DNA of 64,000 nt, from positions 79,263,219-79,327,218 of the forward strand of contig CM055899.1 in assembly GCA_029582155.1 (NCBI GenBank). The letters run 5' to 3'. A program made the translations under genes and the position numbers. The stretch comes from Panopea generosa (lineage: Eukaryota; Mollusca; Bivalvia; Adapedonta; Hiatellidae). Shown in pieces: positions 17,604 through 63,482 of this stretch. The first letter of the stretch is position 1; every line of letters starts with the position of its first letter. Below the pieces are notes generated by a model. It ran no database searches, was not told where the DNA came from, and saw only the letters and a program-made list of their open reading frames with translations.

Positions 17604-17647
17604 GTAATAATGTGTTTAGACTTAATCATGATGATAACATAATTATT

Positions 17648-19388
17648 TTTAGCTCTACTGGCCAAAGGCCAGAAGTGCTCATGCGATGGCGCGTTGTCTG
17701 TTGTCCGACGTCTGTCGTCTGTCGTCTGACGTCTGTCATCTGTCATATGTTGTCTGTTAGCAGCACTTTCTCTGAAACCACTGGGCCAATTAAACTGAAA
17801 CTTCACATTGGTGTTTCTATTGCATAGGAGACTATACAGAAGATTTTTTTTTTCGATCTGAAATTCAAGATGGCCGCCATTACTAAAAATAGTCCAAAAC
17901 TTAAAAAATCTTTTTCTCATGAACGGCCAAACAGATTTTCAAAATGTTTATGTAGTAATGATGACCAACTATAGTTTTGTTAGATTTGTTCAAATGGTGT
18001 CCCTAGGGTTAAATATGGCCCTGCCCCGAGGGTTCAATTAGGGGACACATGTCATTATAATATTTTTTTTTAATTTTTTTTTTAAAATGGAAATGATTTT
18101 GCCTATATGTTCACAGAAGCATTGTTTAGTGAAGGAGGTTCAGATTTGTAAAAATGACTGGGTTCCACTGTCTTAAGGGGTCAGGAAGGGCCCCAAAAGG
18201 GTAAAAATTGGGAATTACTAAATTTGTTTCTTAAGAACCGGTATGTCAGATTTGTTCATATATTGCATAAATTATCCCTATATGTAGGGGTTTGATTGCA
18301 GATAAGAATTTAGGGGCTAAAATTTATAGGGGCCCTGTAAGGGGACTTAGAATTTTATATAGGGATACTATTGGAAAACAGAAAATTCTCTTTTTCTTTC
18401 ATCTGTTCTTAAACCACTAGGCCAATTAGACTGAAACTTTACATGGATGTTTCTATTGCATAGGAGACTATACAGAAGATTTTTTTTTTCGATCTGAAAT
18501 TCAAGATGGTCGTCATTACTAAAAATAGTCCAAAACTTAAAAAATCTTCTTCTCATGAACGGCCCAACAGATTTTCAAAATGTTTATGTAGTAATGATAA
18601 CCAACTTTAGTTCTGTTAGATTTGATCAAATGGTGGCCCTAGGGTAAAAAATTACCCTGCCCCCAGAGTTCAATCAGGGGACACAAGTCAATATAATATT
18701 TTTTTTATTTTTTTTTAAATGGAAATAATTTTGCCTATATCTTCACTAAAGCATTGCTAGGTAAAGGCGGTTAAGATTTGTAAAAATGACTGGGTTCCTA
18801 TGTCTTAAGAGGTCAGGAGGGGCCCCAAAAAGGTACAAATTGGGAATTAGTAAAATTGTTTTCTTAAGAACCGGTATGTCAGATTTGTACATATTTGATA
18901 TAAATTATCCCTAAGTGTAGGGGTTTGATTGCAGAAAAGAATTTAGGGCTTAGGATATATAGGGGCCCTGTAAGGGGACTTAAAATTTTACATAGGGATA
19001 CAATGGGAAAACAGAAAATTCTCTGTTTTTTTCTTCATTTATTATGAAACCACTAGGCCAATTAAACTGAAACTTCACATGGGTGTTTCTATTGCATAGG
19101 AGACTATATAAAAGATTTATTTTTTCTATCTAAAATTCAAGATGGCCACCGTTACTAAAAATAGTCCAAAACTTAAAAAGTATTCTTCTCATGAACGGTC
19201 CAACAGATTTTCAAAATCTTTATGTAGTAATGATGACCAACTATAGTTTTGTTAGATTTGTTCAAATGGTTTCCCTCGAGTTAAAAATGACCCCGCCCGA
19301 TGTTTCTATTGCATAGTAGAATTTCAAAAAGTGTTATGGCCACTATGAGTCAGTAGAGCGTCCTCAGGCCCTCTTGGGCCTCTTGTTT
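17648..19388 (-). mobile_element. Helitron-like nonautonomous element H1
   Basis: Read on the - strand it begins ACAAGAGGCCCAAGAGGGCC and ends GGCCTTTGGCCAGTAGAGCTAAA. Both ends have short hairpins (GGCCCAAGAGGGCC; TGGCCTTTGGCCA) and the 3' end is CTAA. It contains about 2.5 tandem units of roughly 636 bp (phased by the recurring GAAATTCAAGATGG word) and a GTCTGTCGTC-rich microsatellite near one end. No coding capacity. The inverted copy H2 is at 34184-36425. The class is inferred from the ends; pearl-type elements of bivalves look similar. Confidence 0.7.
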
Positions 19389-19528
19389 ATTGTTGCCTGC
19401 AAAGCTTGAGATTTCACTGGACAGGTATGCCCAACATGACATGATTCACTTGTCATTGTTTTCTGTAACACTTTCATTTCAATTTGATAACTTCAGTTTC
19501 CTTTAAGCTATCTTGATGAAACTTTATA

Positions 19529-28527: not shown

Positions 28528-31500
28528 CTTAACTCTACGGACCAAGCTGCAGAGGACTTATGTGATGGTAATTTTACTGTCCTTCATATTACTTAACTCT
28601 ACTGACCACGCACCAGAGGACTTATGTGATGGTAATTTTACTGTTCTTCATATTACTTAACTCTACCAACCAAGCACCAGAGGACTTATGTGATGGTAAT
28701 TTGACCTTTGTTCATCTTACTTAACTCTACTGACCAAGCACCAGAGGACTTATGTCATGGTAATTTTACTGTACTTCATCTTACTTAACTCTACCAACCA
28801 AGCATCAGAGGACTTATGTGATGGTAATTTTACTGTCCTCCATCTTACTTAACTTTACGGACCACGCACCAGAGGACTTATGTGATGGTAATTTTACTGT
28901 CCTTCATATTACTTAACTCTACCGACCAAGCATCAGAGGACTTATGTGATGGTAATTTTACTGTCCTCCATCTTACTTAACTTTACGGACCACGCACCAG
29001 AGGACTTATGTGATGGTAATTTTACCATCCTTCATCTTACTTAACTTTACTAACCAAGCACCAGAGGACTTATGTGATGGTAATTTTACTGTCCTTCATC
29101 TTACTTAACTTTACTGACCACTCACCAGAGGACTTATGTAATGGTAATTTTACCATCCTTCATCTTACTTAACTCTACCGACCAAGCACCAGAGGACTTA
29201 TGTGATGGTAATTTTACTGTCCTTTAACTTACTTAACTCTACTGACCACGCACCAGAGGACTTATGTGATGGTAATTTTACTGTCCTTCATCTTACTTAA
29301 CTCTACTGACCACGCACCAGAGGACTTATGTGATGGTAATTTTACTGTCTTTCATCTTACTTAACTCTACCGATAATGCACCAGAGGACTTATTTGGTGG
29401 TAATTATACCGTCCTTCATCTTACTTAACTCTACTGACCAAGCACCAGAGGACTTATGTGATGGTAATTTTACTGTCCTTCATCTTACTAAACTCTACCA
29501 ACCAAGCACCAGGGGACTTATGTGATGGTAATTTTACTGTCTTTCATCTTACTTAACTCTACCGACCACGCACCAGAGGACTTATGTGATGGTAATTTTA
29601 CTGTCCTTCATCTTACTTAACTCTACTGACCACGCACCAGAGGACTTATGTGATGGTAATTTTACTGTCCTTCATCTCACTTAACACTACTGACCAAGCA
29701 CCAGAGGACTTATGTGATGGTAATTTTACTGTCCTTCATCTTACTTAACTCTACTGACCATGCACCAGAGGACTTATGTGATGGTAATTTTACTGTCCTT
29801 CATCTTACTTAACTCTACTGACCATGCACCAGAGGACTTATGTGATGGTAATTTTACTGTCCTTCAACTTACTTAACTCTACTGATCAAGCACCAGAGGA
29901 CTTATGTGATGGTAATTTTACTGTCCTTCATCTTACTTAACTATACCGACCAAGCACCAGAGGACTTATGTGATGGTAATTTTACTGTCCTTCATCTTAC
30001 TTAACTATACCGACCAAGCACCAGAGGACTCATGTGATGGTAATTTTACTGTCCTTCATCTTACTTAACTCTGCCGACCAAGCACCAGAGGACTTATGTG
30101 ATGGTAATTTTACTGTCCTTCATCTTACTTAACTCTACTGACCACTCACCAGATGATTTATGTGATGGTAATTTTACTGTCCTTCATCTTACTTAACACT
30201 ACTGACCAAGCACCAGAGGACTTATGTGATGGTAATTTTACTGTCCTTCATTTTACTTAACTCTACTGACCAAGCACCAGAGGACTTATGTGAGGGTAAT
30301 TTTACTGTCCTTCATCTTACTTAACTCTACTGACCAAGCACCAGAGGACTTATGTCATGGTAATTTTACTGTCCTTCATCTTACTTAACTCTACCGACCA
30401 AGCACCAGAGGACTTATGTGATGGTAATTTTACTGTCCTTCATATTACTCAACTCTACCAACCAAGCACCAGAGGACTTATGTGATGGTAATTTACTGTC
30501 CTTCATCTTACTTAACTCCACTGATCAAGCACCAGAGGATTTATGTCATGGTAATTTTACTGTCCTTCATCTTACTTAACTCTACTGACCACTCACCAGA
30601 GGACTTATGTGATGGTAATTTTACCGTCCTTCATCTAACTTAACTCTACTGATCAAGCACCAGAGGACTTATGTAATGGTAATTTTACTGTCCTCCATCT
30701 TACTTAACTCTACCGACCAAGCACCAGAGGACTTATGTGATGATAATTTTACTGTACTTCATCTTACTTAACTCTACCGAACAAGCACCAGAGGACTTAT
30801 GTGATGGTAATTTTACCGTCCTTCATCTTACTTAACTCTACCGATCAAGCACCAGAGGACTTATGTGAGGGTAATTTTACTGTCCTTCATCTTACTTAAC
30901 TCTACTGACCATGCACCAGAGGACTTATGTGATGGTAATTTTACTGTCCTTCATCTTACTTAACTCTACTGACCAAGCACCAGAGGACTTATGTCATGGT
31001 AATTTTACCGTCCTTCATCTTACTTAACTCTACCGACCAAGAACCAGAGGACTCATGTGATGGTAATTTTACTGTCCTTCATCTTACTTAACTCTACCGA
31101 CCAAGCACCAGAGGACTTATGTGATGGTAATTTTACTGTCCTTCATCTTACTTAACTCTACCGACCAAGCACCAGAGGACTTATGTCATGGTAATTTTAC
31201 TGTCTTTCATCTTACTTAACTCTACTGACCACCCACCAGAGGACTTATGTGATGGTAATTTTACTGTCTTTCATCTTACTTAACTCTACCGACAATGCAC
31301 CAGAAGACTTATGTGATGGTAATTTTACTGTCCTTCATCTTACTTAACTCTACCGACCAAGCACCAGAGGACTTATGTGATGGTATTTTTACTGTCCTTC
31401 ATCTTACTTAACTCTACCAACCAAGCACCAGAGGACTTATGTGATGGTAATTTTATCGTCTTTCATCTTACTTAACTCTACTGACCACGCACCAGAGGAC

Positions 31501-31725
31501 TTATGTGATGGTAATTTTACCGTCCTTCATCTTATTTAACTATACTGACCACGCACCAGAGGACTTATGTGATGGTAATTTTACTGTCCTTCATCTTAAC
31601 TCTACTGACCAAGCACCAGAGGACTTATGTGATGGTAATTTTACTGTCCTTCATCTTACTTAACTATACTGACCAAGCACCAGAGGACTTACGTAATGGT
31701 AATTTGACCTTTGTATATTTTACTT
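28528..31725. repeat. 64-bp satellite array, about 50 copies
   Basis: The unit runs AACTCTACTGACCAAGCACC, AGAGGACTTATGTGATGGTA, ATTTTACTGTCCTTCATCTT and ACTT. Units differ at few positions (ACCAAGC/ACCACGC/ACCATGC; TACCG/TACTG). Each unit carries CACCAG|AGG and GATG|GTAATT, which resemble acceptor and donor sites 15 bases apart. The array lies between the 3' ends of the two genes. No gene. Confidence 0.96.
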
Positions 31726-34183
31726 CTACCTGTTTATCATCCATCCGTTTACTTTGCTTGTAAACAGTGTAGTCCTTTCAGTTTTCATCTGATTTTGACC
31801 AAACTTGGTCAGAATGTTTAAGTACACGAAAGCTTGAATGAATTTTATTAAACCAGCCAAAGCTGTCCAGAGACAATGGCATTGACACTTGAATTATTAG
31901 AAAGTTTTTTTCTTGCTCTCATCTTGTTACAGATTGCCAAACTTTCTTAGAATGTAAATAAGCCTAAAAGCTCGGACAAGTTGGAACTGGCCAGCTCGGA
32001 CTATAATTGACTGATGTGTGCCTTCATTGCCAAATACAGATTTTTGCCATGTGAACATTGTAGCACTTTAGTTTCTTGGTCAGAGTGTTATTGACCATAA
32101 AAGCTCAGATGAGTTCTTGAACTGGCCATACTGGACAAGAATGGATAGAGTTATGACCCTTGATGGTTTTGAAAATGCTGATATTTGCCTTGTTACTTTA
32201 GTTTTTATTGGATCATCACCAAACTTAGAGTGTTATTGACAATGCAAGTTTAGATGAGTTATTTATTCAACCCAACCAGGAACAACATAGTTATTGCCCT
32301 TGGATTTAAAAAAGGCTGAGTGATGCCCTTGTCACATCATAGGATCCTCAGTTTTTATCCGATCCTAACCAAACTCGTCAAGGATGTTTGTAATGCTCAT
32401 ATTATTTTTTGAACCAGTCAAACTGGATTAGAATAAACAATATAGTTAGGTGCTATTGGACCTTTTGTTTGTTCAGACGCCTGTGTTCAGTAACATATTA
32501 TTTTTTTCTGTTTAAGACTAATCTTAGCTGACTTTATATATTATAGAGAGCAACATAATGATGAAATATCTTCTTTTTACATCAAGCAAGTATATTTCTA
32601 TTCCTAATATTTTTAATAAAATTAAAAAAATATTGGTGTTAGTTTTGTCAGTCATTTATTAAAATAAAATATCTCATGTTTACTTGCCAAATTATACTAT
32701 ATGCCAGTTTTATTTTACAGGTACAGTTTTGATTAACATATATTTTAGTGTGTTAGCGATTATGTAAAGAGGTGAGCATGTACCTGTATATTTACCCAGA
32801 AGGTTTTTCTTACAAGTTATACACATAGCTTCTGTTTCACGACATATTTTAAGATTTTTAAGTATATATATATCTGTCTGTTAAAGTTTTTATTTAGCCT
32901 AGCACTTTGAACTAGTAATTTTGGCAGGCATATATTTATCTACTTAATACTTCTTGATGATCATGATCTGAGAAGGGTTCTACTACATTTTCGTGTAGTT
33001 TAATCAACACTGATTACATATTCTGAAGTAACCAGTAAAATATGGGTAATAAGTTTTAAGGTCATATGTTTTTTAAGCAACATTTAAGAAAACTGATGGA
33101 ACAAAAGCAAGTACGCTATGTATATTGTTTTAGGTTAAACTGCCATTTTCTGGCCATTCTACTCGACTTTTACAATGTGATAACCAGAAATAAAATTCAA
33201 ATACAAGTATACGATTGTATACACAATATTTTACTTGTTCAGTATTTATTCAGAAAATTTACAATTGTTGTATTTAATTTACACTATTATACATGTACAT
33301 GTATTTGACTTTGCCAAATAAAATAAATAAAAACAACTTTGAATCTTTTCACATTGTTTTCTATATGCATGCATGATATCACCAAATTTAGCTTCAGAAA
33401 AGAAGTACGATATTTTCCTTTATTATTTTATTAAAATGTTCTAGAAAATGGTCATATATTACCCAGATGTTGTGAATGGATTATGAAATGTAAGGTCTCA
33501 CTTAAGAATTACCTTCCTTATATGACAGTAGCAAGATTCTTACACGCAAGAAATTAAGAGCTTTGTAAATCGGCTGGGCATTATTTTTGTGAAAATGCAT
33601 AAAATTGTTGTATTTCTTTGTACATGAGAATATTGGAACAATTTCATGATTTCAGCCAAGTTTGGGTGAAATTGGGTGATGTTTGATGATGCTGTAACAG
33701 CTAAAGATGCTTAGTGATACACTGCAACAAATGGGCAGAATTGTCAAAAATGAAGGGGTCATAAAACCATCAAAAATGTGGAACGGCAACCTGGTCAACC
33801 CCGTGTATTTTTCTGCATAATTGGACCAACAGGGGACTATCTATGGAAACAAGGCACTTTTATAACCATTGGTAACATGTCCAGTGTTCTAGAAGTGCAT
33901 TTCTCTATATGTAAAACTAAAAAATTAAAGGTTTGTGCATGACAAGAAAGACAGAATGATGACAGACGAAGAACAGATTTTAATACAGTGCGATTTATTG
34001 TGAATTTGAGCTCACTCTGGACTAAAAAATCAAAAACCTTTATAAATACAAATAAATGGTATGATCTGCAGATAATTATATATCTGTAATTTCTATACCA
34101 TGTAACAAGCATTTAAAACACGACATAATACAAATTTACAGTAGTCATTAATTGCAGATTGATGTTGCCCGTCTACAAAATAA
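31726..34183. other. Intergenic, degraded repeats
   Basis: Between about 31770 and 32440 there are three or four loose repeats of a motif like GATTTTGACCAAACTTGGTCAG with AGAATGTTT, typical of old internal units of noncoding elements. The rest is AT-rich with no supported gene; an 80-codon frame at 33066 has no family signature. Confidence 0.5.
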
Positions 34184-36425
34184 ACAAGAGGCCCAAGAGG
34201 GCCTGAGGATGCTCTACTGACTCATAGTGGCCATAGCACTTTTTGAAATTCTACTATGCATAGAAACACCGGGCGGGGTCATTTTTAAATCTAGGGACAC
34301 CATTTGAACAAATCTAACAAAACTATAGTTGGTCATCATTACTACATAAACATTTTGAAAATCTGTTGGACCGTTCATGAGAAGAAGATTTTTTAAGTTT
34401 TGGACTATTTTTAGTATTAGTGGCCATCTTGAATTTTAGACAGAAAAAATAAATCTTTTGTATAGTCTCCTATGCAATAGAAACATCCATGTGAAGTTTC
34501 AGTTTAATTGGCCTAGTGGTTTCAGAATAAATGAAAAAAAAAGAGAATTTTCTGTTTTCCAACAGTATTTCTATGTAAAATTCTAAGTCCCCTTACAGGG
34601 CTCCTACACTTAGGGATAATTTATATCAAATATGTACAAATCTGTCATACCGGTTCATAAGAAAACAATTTTACTAATTCCCAATTTGTACCCTTTTGGG
34701 GCCCCTTCTGACCCATTTAGACATAGGAACCCATTCATTTTTACAAATCTTAACCTCCTTTACCTAACAATGCTTTAGTGAAGATATAGGGAAAATTATT
34801 GCCATTTAAAAAAAAAAAAAAATATATTATATTGACATGTGTCCCCTAATTGAACTCTCGGGGCAGGGTCATTTTTAACCCTAGGGACACCATTTGAACA
34901 AATCTAACAGAACTGTAGTTGGTCATAATTACAACATAAACATTTTGAAAATATGTTGGGCCGTTCATGAGAAGATTTTTAAGTTTTGGACTATTCTTAG
35001 TAACAGCGGCCATCTTTAATTTCAGGTCGAAAAAAAAAAATCTTCTGTATAGTCTCCTATGCAATAGAAACACTCATGTGAAGTTTCAGTTTGAACTGGC
35101 CTAGCGTTTTAAGAACAGATGAAAGAAAAAGAGAATTTTCTGTTTTCCCATAGTATCCCTATGTAAAATTCTAAGTCCCCTTACAGGGCCCCTATAAATT
35201 TTAGCCCCTAAATTCTTATCTGCAATCAAACCCCTACACAAAAGGATAATTTATGCAAAATATGAACAGATCTGACATACTGGTTCTTAAGAAAACGAAT
35301 TTAGTAATTCCCAATTTTTACCCTTTCGGGGCCCCTCCTGACCCCTTTAGACATAGGAACCCAGTCATTTTTACAAATCTGAACCTCCTTCACCAAACAA
35401 TGCTTCTGTGAAGATATAGGCAAAATCATTTCCATTTTAAAAAAAAAATAAAAAAAAAATATTATAATGACACGTGTCCCATAATTGAACCCTCGGGGCG
35501 GGTTCATATTTAACCCTAGGGACACCATTTGAACAAATCTAACAAAACTTTAGTTGGTCATCATTACTACATAAACATTTTGAAAATCTGTTGGGCCGTT
35601 CATGAGAAGAAGATTTTTTAAGTTTTGGACTATTTTTAGTAATGGCGGCCATCTTGAATTTCAGATCGAAAAAAAAAAAATCTTCTGTATAGTCTCCTAT
35701 GCAATAGAAACACCCATGTGAAGTTTCAGTTTAATTGACCTAGCGGTTTAAGAACAGATGAAAGAAAAAGAGAATTTTCTGTTTTCCCATAGTATCCCTA
35801 TGTAGAATTCTAAGTCCCCTTACAGGGCCCCTATAAATTTTAGCCCCCTAAATTTTTATCTGCAATCAAACCCCTACACATAGGGATAATTTATGCAAAA
35901 TATGAACAAATCTGACATACCGGTTGTTAAGAAAACGAATTTAGTAATTCCCAATTTTTACCCTTTCGGGGCCCCTCCTGACCCCTTAAGACATAGGAAC
36001 CCAGTCATTTCTGCAAATCTGAACCTCCTTCACCAAACAATGCTTCTGTGAAGATATAGGCAAAATTATTTCCATTTAAAAAAAAAAATATATATATTAT
36101 AATGACATGTGTCCCCTAATTGAACCCTTGGGGCGGGGTCATATTTAACCCTAGGGACACCATTTGAACAAATCTAACAAAACTTTAGTTGGTCATCATT
36201 ACTACATAAACATTTTGAAAATCTGTTGGACCGTTCATGAGAAGAAGATTTTTTAAGTTTTGGACTATATTTAGTAATGGCGGCCATCTTGAATTTCAGA
36301 TCGAAGTTTCAATTTAATTTGCCTTGTGGTTTCAGAGAAAGTGCTGCTAACAGACGTCAGACGACGGACGACAGACAACGCGCCATCACATAAGCACTTC
36401 TGGCCTTTGGCCATTAGAGCTAAAA
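34184..36425 (+). mobile_element. Helitron-like nonautonomous element H2
   Basis: Starts ACAAGAGGCCCAAGAGGGCC and ends TGGCCTTTGGCCATTAGAGC-TAAAA. It is the inverted counterpart of H1 with about 3.5 internal units of 585-640 bp, marked by AAGTTTTGGACTATTTTTAG recurring near 34395, 34980, 35618 and 36252. A CAGACGTCAGACGACGGACG microsatellite lies before the 3' end. No coding capacity. Confidence 0.72.
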
Positions 36426-37908
36426 ACTCACCTGTGAGTCTTCAGCTTATTTTTAAATTTATTTAAGCGAACTTATAAAAGTCAATAATCAACAATGCAT
36501 GGATGGTAGACACCGGGTAATCACAAAAGCTCATATTTGAGTGAGGAAAATATTTGTTTAGTAACCATGGTTACCTGTAATGAACATTCAGTTGATTACA
36601 TGAATTCCCTGGTATCAATATAGTAAGTATACATGTAAAGCTTCAATGTTTCAATGACTTTGACCTTCTGCCCCAAAAATCCATAAAGGTCAAAATGGTG
36701 TCCCAACTGAACTTCATTAGTGCGACTTGGTGAGGGGTTCCTATGGTGATGAGCAAAGTTATGTGCTATCGGTCAGGGAGCAAACTTACAAAGATAGAAA
36801 TATGCAACTCCAAATATGAAATTTGATTCATTTTACAGAATTATGCATAAAACATAGAATTATTTATAAAACATACAGAATTATTCAACTGACCAGACAC
36901 TAGAATGACTTTCACTCCCCCCACTGGCCACGTGTCTTTTTTTGTCCAAGTCGGTACATGTAGTGTTTACTCAAGACATACATGTAGTTGGCTTGTCTAA
37001 GGAAAATGTCAGTCAGCAACTTGATCAGATTATCAACTTGTTTGATTGACAGCTCGCATCAGGTTAGTTCATAAAGCACAGGAAATTATCCATATAATAA
37101 TTCATAAAACAGGTAGCTATTATCCATAAAATACAGGAATTTATTTTATCCATGAAACAGATAATTATTCATAACACACAGGGAATTGAACAGAATAAGA
37201 GAAACCGGGCATTGTTTTACAGTTTTATTGCAGTTTGATCATTCATATAGAAACAAAATCATAGCAAACTTTTAATACTACAAAGATATCAAAATAAACC
37301 CATTTTTTTATTTTGGTATAAAAGTAAGTAGAGCATTTATAAAAAATGAGAATGAAAATGAACATAAATGCAAGACTTGTGCCTTATTATTACTAAATTG
37401 GGGTCTCTGATTTCAAATCTCTTTTTAATTCATATCAAAACTCACTAAACAAGAATTGACTAAACTCACTTGCAGAATGGCACTTTTAAAAGAAAATATC
37501 CTGAGATCACATTCTTTTCTTTTAAGTTTTACTACATGTATTTATTATTACTTCATAAAATTTAAAGTTTTAAGTCTCAAGTCCGATATTCAGTCTCATG
37601 TGTTTAGGCACTGTTGTCTATCTTGCAAAGTTTTAAAGAGGATATATATATATATATTAAACTTCCATAATCATCAGAAACTAATTTTGTTTTAAGTTAA
37701 ACAAGAAAATAACATAATTATGTCCCTTACACATAAAAATCAATAAGCACTTATTTATGATTCAAATATCGCCCCCATTTAGAGGTAAAATGCCAAGTAT
37801 ATATGATAATAGAAGACACATACAAGTAACACCTTTAACCTCTAAGGGGTTGACTAACACAATTATGATGGTCACATAAAGTACAAATACATGCTTAATG
37901 CCATAATA
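36426..37908. other. Intergenic, no gene seen
   Basis: AT-rich with a small fragment (about 36650-36780) that resembles noncoding repeats (GACCTTCTGCCCCAAAAATC, AGCAAAGTTATG). The 79-codon frame near 37456 is not supported. Confidence 0.45.
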
Positions 37909-43615: not shown

Positions 43616-44194
43616 AATGTGTACATGTCAAATCTTTGTCTTAAATATGACCATTCTTTCTCAAGAAAACTACAAAATTTTATTGAAGAGCGCTGCTCCG
43701 TATTATTTTTTGACTGCAACATGGATGTGAAGACACACTTGATGTAACGATACCAACTGACACTATGTACAATATACATTGTCACTGTATTCATGTTTCA
43801 TATATACAGAAATCGTTGGATACCCACATGTGACCCATTTCGATACTCTCTATTTATCACCCATGGGACATTACACTAGTTTTACAGCATTTCTACCAAG
43901 CCACGATGCAACCATATGGTTGGTTCCTTCACAATTTCATAAAGGGAACGTTATCCAATAGCAACACTAGTTTCATGTAAATGCCGTTTTGATAAGACGT
44001 TAATGTTAGCTGTATTTTGTTCTGCTCTGTTCAAATAAAATTATTCAGAGCTAGCGTATTTTCCCACGGGTGATGGATGAAGAGTATTGGAAATATTAGA
44101 ACCTTGATTCTCTAAGGTGGATCTGAGTTTTGTTTTTTTCAATTAAGTTTAGTCTAAGCTTATTTATATTAATTTTATTTTATACAAATCATGC

Positions 44195-44345
44195 TCAAAG
44201 TCTACCTTGGTAGAACCAGTATTAAGCACATGCGGAAAAAGTCTCCGCTCAAGAACAACATACAAGGTCGTGGCGCAGGATCAAACCCACGACTCTCCGA
44301 TCCTAGGTTTGGTGCTCTACAACTTGACCATGCAATTCGCATAAG
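44195..44345 (-). mobile_element. SINE family D copy
   Basis: On the - strand: GTTGTAGAGCACCAAACCTA (A-box-like GTAGAGC), B-box-like GGGTTTGATCCTGC, then CTTGAGCGGAGACTTTTTCC and the tail TACTGGTTCTACCAAGGTAG. Same family as 62840-63003. Confidence 0.7.
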
Positions 44346-45161: not shown

Positions 45162-45324
45162 CTGTAGACAGAATATATCATAATTATTTACAAAACATTG
45201 GCTGCAGGTTAATTATCAATTATGTAAGCAGGTGAATATTCTATGTAAAGTATTACACACATATGCTTGAAACATAACTTGTAATACAAATGTATACTTT
45301 ATTGTAAAATCATATCCAATTTTT

Positions 45325-45618
45325 TTAATGGTATTTAATGCAATTTTTTAAACACATTTCAGGTTATTTGTGGCATATCCAGTTTTACTGCTGACGTAAG
45401 ACATCAAAATGAATCTGAGTAGAACCACCGTCCTTCTGCAACTGGCAAACCACCGTCCTTCCGCAACTGGCAAACCACCGTCCTTCTGCAACTGGCAAAC
45501 CACCGTCCTTTTTCACATAAAAGCGTTTGGAGCAAGTGGAACTCCAACCTATGACCTTAGTGGTGAAAGGCAAGTGAGCTTGAGGCGGCGCCTCAGACCA
45601 CTTGGCCACAAAGGACTG
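45325..45618 (-). mobile_element. SINE family A with internal 25-bp expansion
   Basis: A near full-length SINE (head GTGGCCAAGTGGTCTGAGG, tail TTGCATTAAATACC) in which the segment CCACCGTCCTTCTGCAACTG-GCAAA is tandemly repeated four times at about 45424-45510. Confidence 0.88.
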
Positions 45619-60830: not shown

Positions 60831-61124
60831 TTTTTAAGGTAAAAATAATGTGCTAAAATTTAATATTAGTTTGTGATAAACAGATTATACAGCATACTGT
60901 TAAAAGTGTCGGCATCAGCAACATTTTTTTACTGTTTATGTATTTACAGTGTATAGTGCCATTGGCGAAATTGAGAGCATCTACGGCTTTTAACTGCCAG
61001 CTAGAACGTTCCCAGTTATTTTTTTAATGTTGTATCAACAATGCATGCAGTCCGGTTATTATTGGATACGAAAAAGCATAAAAATGTATATTAAACAAGG
61101 TTTGCTTGATTCGATGTCTCTCAC

Positions 61125-62015
61125 AAAACAACATTCAGCACTGGTTCTACCCATGAAGCAGACAATATTCAGTACTGGTTCTACCCAGGAAGCAAACAAC
61201 ATTCAGCACTGGTTCTACCCAGGAAGCAGACAACATTCAGTACTGGTTCTACCCAGGAAGCAGACAACACTCAGCACTGGTTCTACCCAGGAAGCAAACA
61301 ACTCAGTACTGGTTCTACCCAGGAAGCAAACAACACTCAGTACTGGTTCTACCCAAGAAGCAAACAACATTCAGCACTGGTTCTACCAAGGAAGCAGACA
61401 ACACTCAGTACTGGTTCTACTCAGGAAGCAAACAACACTCAGTACTGGTTCTACCCAGGAAGCAAACAACACTCAGTACTGGTTCTACCCAGGAAGCAGA
61501 CAACATTCAGTACTGGTTCTACTCAGGAAGCAAACAACACTCAGTACTGGTTCTACCCAGGAAGCAGACAACACTCAGTACTGGTTCTACCCAGGAAGCA
61601 GACAACATTCAGTACTGGTTCTACCCAGGAAGCAAACAACACTCAGGACTGGTTCTACCCAGGAAGCAGACAACACTCAGTACTGGTTCTACCCAGGAAG
61701 CAAACAACACTCAGGACTGGTTCTACCCAGGAAGCAGACAACACTAAGTACTGGTTCTACCCAGGAAGCAAACAACACTCAGCACTGGTTCTACCCATGA
61801 AGCAGACAACACTCAGGACTGGTTCTACCCAGGAAGCAAACAACACTCAGTACTGGTTCTACCCAGAAGGCAAACAACACTCAGTACTGGTTCTACCCAG
61901 GAAGCAAACAACATTCAGCACTGGTTCTACCCAGGAAGCAAACAACACTCAGTAATGGTTCTACCCAGGAAGCAGACAACACTCAGTACTGGTTCTACCC
62001 AGGAAGCAGACTCAA
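61125..62015. repeat. 34-bp satellite in SPT6 intron, about 26 copies
   Basis: Unit CACTCAGTACTGGTTCTACC plus CAGGAAGCAAACAA. Variants: AGACAA for AAACAA, ATTC for ACTC, and one unit shortened by 4 bp. The core AGTACTGGTTCTACCCAGG is also the tail of SINE family D. A 257-codon frame is the translated repeat. Confidence 0.95.
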
Positions 62016-62078
62016 GAGTGGTTCATATAAACTTCAAGCTTTCTTTGCAATCAAACTTATACTAATTAAAAATCTTAC

Positions 62079-62155
62079 TAATTTTCTGCAGTGACTGCTA
62101 TCACATGTGGCTTTTTGGTTTCAATGAAATCCTTCAATTTATCCATGTCTTTCTC
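62079..62155 (-). CDS. SUPT6H: SPT6 exon, YqgF/RNase H-like (f40-f65)
   Basis: EKDMDKLKDFIETKKPHVIA then VTAEN. Matches the KPHVVTVAGEN strand of vertebrate SPT6. It begins only about 64 bp from the 34-bp satellite. Donor TA|GTAAGA, phase 2. Confidence 0.94.
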
Positions 62156-62224
62156 CTGTGAATATATTTAAACAATACATGAACGTACAAACTAATGAGA
62201 AAACATTTATTCAAATAGAATTTA

Positions 62225-62475
62225 TTTGTTTGCTTGTTTGTGTGAGGCTTAATGCTATTTTCAAAAATGTTTACATTAGATAACAGTGTTCAGTGTGCAC
62301 CTAATCATGTTCTTGTGATTGGTTAGGCAGTTAACCAGTACTATTCATGGTTTATGGTAACAGAACAAAGTTCATGACCAATCATCACAGAGATTAGCCG
62401 GCTGGCAATTCAAACTCAGGATACCTGGACTGTCAGTCAGATGCTTTACCAATTGAGCTTCCTGAACCCTGCATA
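62225..62475 (-). mobile_element. tRNA-derived SINE, family B-like
   Basis: On the - strand a head with AAGCTCAATTGGTAAAGCAT, GACTGACAGTCCAGG and GAGTTTGAATTGCC; the body is diverged and includes AGTACTGGTTAACTGCC. Tail TAGCATTAAGCCTC is family A-like. Confidence 0.6.
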
Positions 62476-62839
62476 ATTAATTTGAATCCCATTGACATCG
62501 AACATGAACTTGTATTTCAACAGATTGCAGCACATATTACATAACTATATATATTGCAATTATTTCAGTTGATCTGAATTAGCAAAATGCATTAGAGAGA
62601 AGGTTAAAGCATCCCTTTCTGTTGTCAGTACTGTGCACCATGTATTACACATTTCTCTTTGATAACAACATAATTTGACATATTAACATAAAGTGGAGAA
62701 TCTTTAACTTGTTATATACAAGACGTAATGAATGGATGAGTCTCCAGATCCAAATATCTGTATGTAAACTGGTTCTGATAATGTGTTATAGTTCAAACTT
62801 ATTTATTTTCCTACGATTGTGAAACAAGTTATTACAAAT

Positions 62840-63003
62840 TAAACAAATCATGCTTGAAGTCTACCTGGGTAGAACCAGTACTAAGCATATGGGGAAAAGC
62901 GTCTTGCTCAATGAAACCTCACACAGCCACGGGGGAGGATCGGACCCCAACCCTCTGATCTTGGGTTCGATGCTCTACCACTAGAACACATGCTCCACAA
63001 TGT
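62840..63003 (-). mobile_element. SINE family D, best copy
   Basis: On the - strand: A box TAGTGGTAGAGCATCGAACC, B-box-like GGGTCCGATCCTCC, then GAGCAAGACGCTTTTCCCC and tail TTAGTACTGGTTCTACCCAG-GTAGACTTC. Ends about 20 bp from the SPT6 exon at 63020. Confidence 0.78.
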
Positions 63004-63019
63004 ATTAAATGTGTCAAAC

Positions 63020-63137: not shown

Positions 63138-63482
63138 CTGTGAGAAAGAAGATAATTATTATGTTTTTGTTGATGAATCATTAAAATAAAGCCCTACAAA
63201 ACAGCATTTATTTTTTCTTCAAATTACCTTGCCTACTCAACCAGTGTTTATAAAGTCTACACTATATAAGGATACTCTTTAATAAACTTAATTTTTTGGG
63301 ACAACAAAAATTGAGCATAATGTTTTTATCAGCAACTTCTCTTATGTTGTAAAAATTTAATGAAAACTGGAAATGTAATAGAAAACAAACATGGACATAA
63401 ACAGCACCTTGCTCTCTGAAATGAATCATTTTCCAAATAAAAATTAACAATGAAAAGCTGTTTTCTTCTTCTAAAGTATTTT
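63138..63482 (-). other. SPT6 intron, no exon seen
   Basis: No sequence matching the preceding SPT6 residues was found; the next upstream exon must lie past the window edge. Confidence 0.5.

Follow-up and report, generated by a model that had tools for sequence, protein, structure and literature searches.

The window, which is the whole 64-kb stretch of DNA analysed here, lies at C6:79263219-79327218 in a host genome of 1.474 Gb and 39 contigs. It contains a 34-bp tandem array flanked by the pieces of a SINE of family X, two copies of a second SINE, family D, and several other repeats (Table 1). The unit consensus of the array is AAACAACACTC-AGTACTGGTTCTACCCAGG-AAGC, and the 34-bp units have a mean identity of 0.955 to it. 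A search of the window with the 19-base word AGTACTGGTTCTACCCAGG, allowing up to three mismatches, gave 28 matches, of which 26 make up the array on the forward strand, all of them with two mismatches or fewer. The other two are on the reverse strand, one exact (62864-62882) and one with two mismatches (44205-44223), both in SINE D copies, while none was obtained in each of 100 shuffled versions of the window. These counts bear out the first-pass annotation, which had reported a word shared by the array and the SINE D copy at 62840-63003. It had also noted that the variant CTACCAAGG is common to one unit (61373-61391) and to the D copy at 44205-44223; this was confirmed, but the same variant is present in the units printed for 11 other array loci (L103, L115, L116, L118, L132, L134, L135, L139, L143, L148, and L149) and is therefore no evidence of a link to that copy. 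With 26 units and 0.88 kb, the window array falls short of the long arrays of many kilobases of classical satellites; the 54 arrays that we examined have 2 to 57 cores each, and those of contig C23 have up to at least 72.

Table 1. Repeats of the window, with their positions and the evidence for them
Feature	Positions	Strand	Evidence
34-bp tandem array	61126..62008	+	TRF (26 copies, 92% matches); core positions; unit consensus
Left flank with the end of the host X head, GCTTGATTCGATGTCTCTCACAAAACAACATTC	61104..61136	+	Local alignment to the X head consensus
Right flank with the tail of this X copy, AAGCAGACTCAAGAGTGGTTCATATAAACTTCAAGC...	62004..62068	+	Alignment to the X tail
SINE D copy with one exact core at 62864-62882; relative, not source	62840..63010	-	Word search and alignment
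Another SINE D copy (75.5% identity with the one above); its core has 2 mismatches	44181..44330	-	Word search and alignment
SINE-like copy of another family with an internal 25-bp array (45423-45510, 3.5 copies)	45308..45616		TRF, alignment

Siblings of the SINE-like copy with the 25-bp array are found at 63480, 39814, 17167, 19703, and 44734, with one unit each, and its array is a parallel case within the same 64 kb, separate from the 34-bp array. Two long inverted copies (17646-19391 and 34179-36426), which are 86-91% identical over about 1.6 kb and have internal repeats each, are possibly a transposon with terminal repeats. A 64-bp tandem array of about 50 copies occupies positions 28528-31705; its unit has a similarity of 70% to 36363-36423 and of 76% to 17649-17689, so that it may derive from the end of the inverted-repeat element. 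ARAGORN found no tRNA gene in the 64-kb window, and the viral contigs gave no match to a 22-base word.

Comparison of the array with the two SINE families showed that, after suitable rotation, the unit consensus agrees with the X core region at 34 of 34 bases, as against at most 26 of 34 for D and at most 21 for 200 shuffled X sequences. Outside the core, 15 of 15 unit bases are those of X and seven of 15 those of D. The left flank aligned to the X head with 27 identical bases out of 33 and a score of 21 (maximum of 2000 shuffles, 15), whereas its score with the D head was 9 (p 0.49); these last 33 bases are the only part of the host head that aligns to X. The right flank aligned to the X tail over 65 columns with a score of 35 (maximum of 2000 shuffles, 18), compared with 16 for the D tail. 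The unit is collinear with a segment of a dispersed SINE and the remaining parts of that SINE are joined to both ends of the array, as in SINE-derived satellites. Since the end of an X head is on the left of the array and an X tail on the right, the 26 cores lie inside one X copy, 61104-62068. Very probably, therefore, the window array is a tandem expansion from the X core that grew between the halves of this X copy; we are less sure of its birthplace, the first duplication having occurred either in this X copy or in its source. No function is indicated and the array is most simply regarded as a neutral minisatellite.

The word AGTACTGGTTCTACCCAGG is present in 28,963 copies in the genome at one mismatch or fewer, array units included, while the reversed control gave none; a stricter core pattern gave 11,553 matches, again with array units included. 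We classified 68 loci of contig C1 that carry the exact word, taken from the first 100 places listed with the 18 between C1:18,427,982 and 22,218,125 left out. When judged by the 12 bases before the core, 34 of them belong to X and 22 to D, while eight were left unassigned, the four array loci being set aside and L069, which seemingly has a partial second unit, being counted as single. The sequence around the core reads ...GATGCCTCTCATAAAACAACACTC-core-AAGCGGACTCGAGAGCGGTTCATATAAGC... in X and ...TTGAGCAAGACACCTTTTCCGCATATGCTT-core-AAGACTTCGAGCGTGATTTGTC... in D. The word had been taken for a SINE tail; in D, it is followed by about 70 more bases, and these alignments place it as a central core in both families. 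Beyond the core, the tails of X and D are alignable (score of 25, best of 2000 shuffles 15) while their heads are barely above chance (18, shuffle maximum 17). Both families consist of thousands of short dispersed copies, some of them 5'-truncated, and there are copies, such as L051 and L082, without visible head. The stretches TAGTCTAATGGATAGAG and GGTTCGATCC of the X consensus are candidates for the A and B boxes of a tRNA-like head.

Family D does carry the word, as its proposed kinship with the array supposed: 22 of the 64 single-core loci are D, all of these having been sampled via the word, and D copies fetched by whole-SINE similarity also keep the core. In 35 alignments of the latter kind, which include the window copy and are the best matches to one query, the core was 0.920 identical to the consensus, compared with 0.870-0.894 in the head, middle, and tail. 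This difference is mild and strong selection on the core was rejected as an explanation. A variant core, AGTACTGGTTAATCCCAGGAA, was seen by eye in positions 58-170 of locus L099, which also has, again by eye, a 3' stretch (GATGGCATA..AATG..TAAATATTCAA) similar to the right flank of L111; these are perhaps members of a third core-bearing SINE family.

We then searched the genome for arrays with an exact pattern that joins one core to the next at a period of 21-37, which gave 1,795 matches as opposed to one for the control. The first 100 of these matches correspond to 19 places, namely 18 arrays and one lone match (L099). The most common spacing is 34 bp in eight of the 18 arrays, 30 bp in seven, and 28, 31, and 37 bp in one each; spacings are mixed in L108 (30 and 34) and in L112 (47 and 34). 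The 37-bp array (L110, C2:4398563) is built from family D. A D-specific join pattern gave 35 matches, which comprise this same array, 42-43-bp junctions on C8, C9, and C16, and one junction on C7; the 42-43-bp junctions are repeated at all but one of their places, as read, apart from C2:4398563, from the match lines only. A two-unit X query added 35 array loci (L114-L132 and L134-L149), among which L115, L124, L125, L130, L136, and L144 are two-unit copies and L114, L117, L118, and L119 are copies of one locus. The loci L114-L149 are biased towards having flanks because the query contained flank pieces.

In the set of 18 arrays found blind to the flanks, 14 are readable at both ends and ten of these have a SINE head on the left and a SINE tail on the right, while each of the other four (L052, L100, L111, and L113) matches on a single side. 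Four arrays have an unreadable end; at the end that could be tested, three of them match whereas L112 does not. When all 54 arrays, including that of the window, are considered (500 shuffles each), both SINE flanks are present in 43 of the 47 that are readable at both ends, and the remaining four have no recognisable SINE flank on one side. Extrapolation from the 13 arrays of C1 gives about 190 in the genome. The core is a recurrent birth site of arrays across the genome; both SINE families are involved and the breakpoints vary.

The frequency of arrays was compared between the core and other parts of the SINE. In C1:1-18.97 Mb, the 100 listed core matches represent 92 outside arrays and four arrays (eight matches). 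The join test on an X tail segment gave 57 matches in three places, two of which are arrays (C5:71537104 and C2:5246446), with three matches for the control and 2,560 intact segments. The join test on an X head segment gave no match, with one for the control, among 1,835 intact segments. Arrays per locus were 4 of 96 for the core, as against 2 of 2,560 for the X tail (Fisher p 2e-5) and 0 of 1,835 for the X head (p 6e-6), in a comparison in which the core test covers X and D and the tail and head controls X only, and which uses exact 8-letter ends and one stretch of C1, a single locus being one outside arrays, with part of these loci read. The X-tail array on C5 (C5:71537104-71542821, L150 and L133) has a period of 32 bp, extends over about 5.7 kb from the first to the last match, and begins after one X core and AAGTGGAC.

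A hairpin was rejected as the cause of the hotspot: 34-base windows over the core fold ordinarily (z about -0.6 to +0.5), and some non-core segments along X and D fold better than the core as DNA. The bases shared at the junctions number two in the 34-bp X arrays, two in the 30-bp X arrays, five in the 43-bp D junctions, one in the 37-bp D array, two in the C7 junction of D (one match), and three in the X-tail array. For comparison, the segments of 25-50 bp that could be taken around the core share a mean of 0.56 bases in X and 0.70 in D, with 12-17% of them reaching two. Such sharing points to slippage or microhomology-mediated repair; the data are few and only suggestive. We tentatively propose, as a possible but doubtful reading, that the 19-bp core acts as a duplication-prone seed in two SINE families and starts arrays tens of times more often per copy than the head or tail does; the cause would be a property such as a site for a protein of replication or recombination, or the manner in which these loci are repaired. 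If this is true, a SINE family spreads satellite nurseries through the genome.

The first-pass annotation had predicted that SINE loci with few monomers would be found, and copies with two to three units do exist. Three of them belong to a larger repeat that contains the X core and tail and is present at seven places, with right flanks 98-99% identical to a 195-base query and with 2, 3, 3, about 32, about 67, at least 66, and at least 72 cores. The copies with 2, 3, and 3 cores, on C12, C16, and C18, have an intact left flank and are 96-98% identical to each other over both flanks, while the four others are on C23. Direct comparison of the locus L114 with the C23 copies L117 and L118 gave 95% identity over 325-342 columns, running rightwards from the last units. 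Copies with right flanks a few per cent apart thus vary in array length by more than a factor of ten. In none of the four C23 copies did the stretch read show the left flank that the short copies have, and since the long C23 arrays differ from the short ones on this side, their length need not be due to simple growth; a rearrangement on the left side may have contributed to it. These four copies of one repeat with long arrays lie within C23 3.04-3.26 Mb (L117, L118, and L152-L155), on a contig of 5 Mb, and some property of this contig may favour growth.

The letters that follow AA in X copies with an exact core region were tallied by hand for the first 100 of 1,190 and are GCGG in 63, GCAG in 16, GTGG in 14 (one of which is the last unit of array L107), GCTG in five, and GCCG in two. 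In an analysis that took in 46 of the 54 arrays, GTGG was the unit consensus of 24 of 37 34-bp arrays, compared with 14 of the 100 single copies (p 2e-8), and of four of seven in the flank-blind set (p 0.015). The arrays with GTGG units include hosts whose flank reads GCGG. On the other hand, units are nearer to the flanks of their own hosts than to those of other hosts, with mean distances of 2.11 and 2.34, respectively (p 0.016), for 37 of the 43 34-bp arrays (L112, L113, L114, L118, L119, and L138 omitted, and L117 entered with only five left-flank letters). The host's own variants CACTT and GCAGAC are present in all units of L104. On a poorly resolved tree of 39 of the 54 arrays and 34 single copies, the array hosts are partly clustered, with 16-18 changes compared with about 24.5 when shuffled. 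The GTGG excess implies that not all 34-bp arrays were independently born, while the different breakpoints and the use of both families led us to reject a single array lineage. We read these data as several independent births together with the spread of at least one GTGG founder, which would have occurred via two-core retroposition or exchange between loci; many of the arrays may go back to such a founder.

The explanation that we prefer for the window array has three steps. A SINE X with a tRNA-like head would have retroposed at the site, as its structure suggests. About 34 bp surrounding the 19-bp core would then have been duplicated between very short direct repeats, as the junctions suggest, by replication slippage or microhomology-mediated repair. 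Unequal exchange or slippage would have enlarged the array to 26 units and separated the X head remnant from the X tail, a step based on the flanks seen at the window array and on the growth seen in copies of another locus. Two alternatives overlap with the duplication step. The source gene could have been a two-core SINE, the array being inserted ready-made with several cores and lengthened later; X copies with two cores and a GTGG first unit are common among the loci sampled (the two-unit loci L115, L124, L125, L130, L136, and L144), but the window consensus is without GTGG, the breakpoints vary among loci, and no supported clade of array-bearing copies is present on the poorly resolved tree, and we regard this origin as unlikely. 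We also judge it quite improbable that the units came from a different 34-bp array, whether through gene conversion or through recombination of a circular DNA into the X core. The presence of GTGG in arrays of diverse hosts suggests some sharing between loci or a common founder; however, the window units read GCAAAC or GCAGAC, which is like or close to the GCAGAC of their own flank, several of them carry the CATTC of the host, and their consensus is not GTGG.

A satellite that existed first and was captured by SINEs, giving X and D their core, would explain why two families with barely alignable heads have this core in common. It is nevertheless most implausible, as X and D also align beyond the core via the tail, most arrays are bounded by SINE halves, breakpoints differ between arrays, and single-core SINE copies number 56 as opposed to four arrays among the 68 loci. 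Hardly credible either is the original proposal, in which the tail of a SINE D copy like the one at 62840-63003 seeded the window array. The 19-bp core is indeed shared, the unit matches the D consensus over 25 columns with one mismatch, and a D core seeded the 37-bp array at C2:4398563 and probably the 42-43-bp ones on C8, C9, and C16; however, the non-core bases of the window units and both flanks of the array are those of X, and the D copy lies about 850 bp away in the opposite orientation. We regard this copy, from its alignments, as a bystander which has only the core in common with the array. What stands of the proposal is the derivation from a SINE, with the X core and not the D tail as the source.

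A single genome thus presents a series that runs from single-core SINEs through copies of two to three units to arrays of dozens of units, many of them inside the parent SINE. This makes satellite birth countable, in terms of the rate per SINE copy, the breakpoints, the microhomology, and the speed of growth. A hotspot at one short core, for which the remaining parts of the element serve as internal control, also gives a testable question.

SINE-derived satellites are of a known kind, and SINE-derived tandem repeats are listed in the portion of a review that we draw on (PMC9659126); the present case is new as far as the literature searched shows. None of four 13-letter pieces of the core region was found in that literature, and the cited part of a paper on bivalve transposons (PMC10294476) names MetaSINE, V-SINE, and Deu-SINE types without domain sequence. 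In the portion used here of the work on the PcH-sat of Patella caerulea (PMC11121367), that satellite is likewise given a SINE origin, proposed to be from Nin-SINE, but it has a 179-bp monomer, makes up about 10% of the genome, and is mainly pericentromeric, whereas the arrays described here are short and dispersed. Tandem repeats derived from transposable elements have been catalogued in human, 2,663 of them from Alu, according to the cited passages of PMC3389668, in which Jurka and Gentles (2006) are quoted for Alu minisatellites that arose by duplication of a SINE piece with short direct repeats on its flanks. The arrays described here resemble these minisatellites in that duplication of a SINE piece would have been followed by further growth in place. 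Going by the same passages, Alu repeats may arise from any region of the element, AluS having two favoured regions while AluJ and AluY have none, whereas here the X head gave no array and the X tail two.

A likeness is also seen to the sSats of squamates. Vassetzky et al. (2023; PMC10702118) described them in 56 genomes, and the sections of that paper used here state that SINE ends border the arrays and that most origins were independent. As in the present genome, those arrays consist of portions of SINEs of several families and their terminal units run into SINE ends; some squamate genomes have short variable sSat loci and others long homogeneous ones. In the same sections, sSat units measure 67 to 215 nt and come from various parts of the SINE, an extended SINE end being mostly confined to one side, whereas here the units measure 28-47 bp and surround a single 19-bp core, and most of the arrays tested retain the two SINE ends. 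In comparison with these systems, as far as the cited portions describe them, the present case has smaller units and a sharper hotspot.
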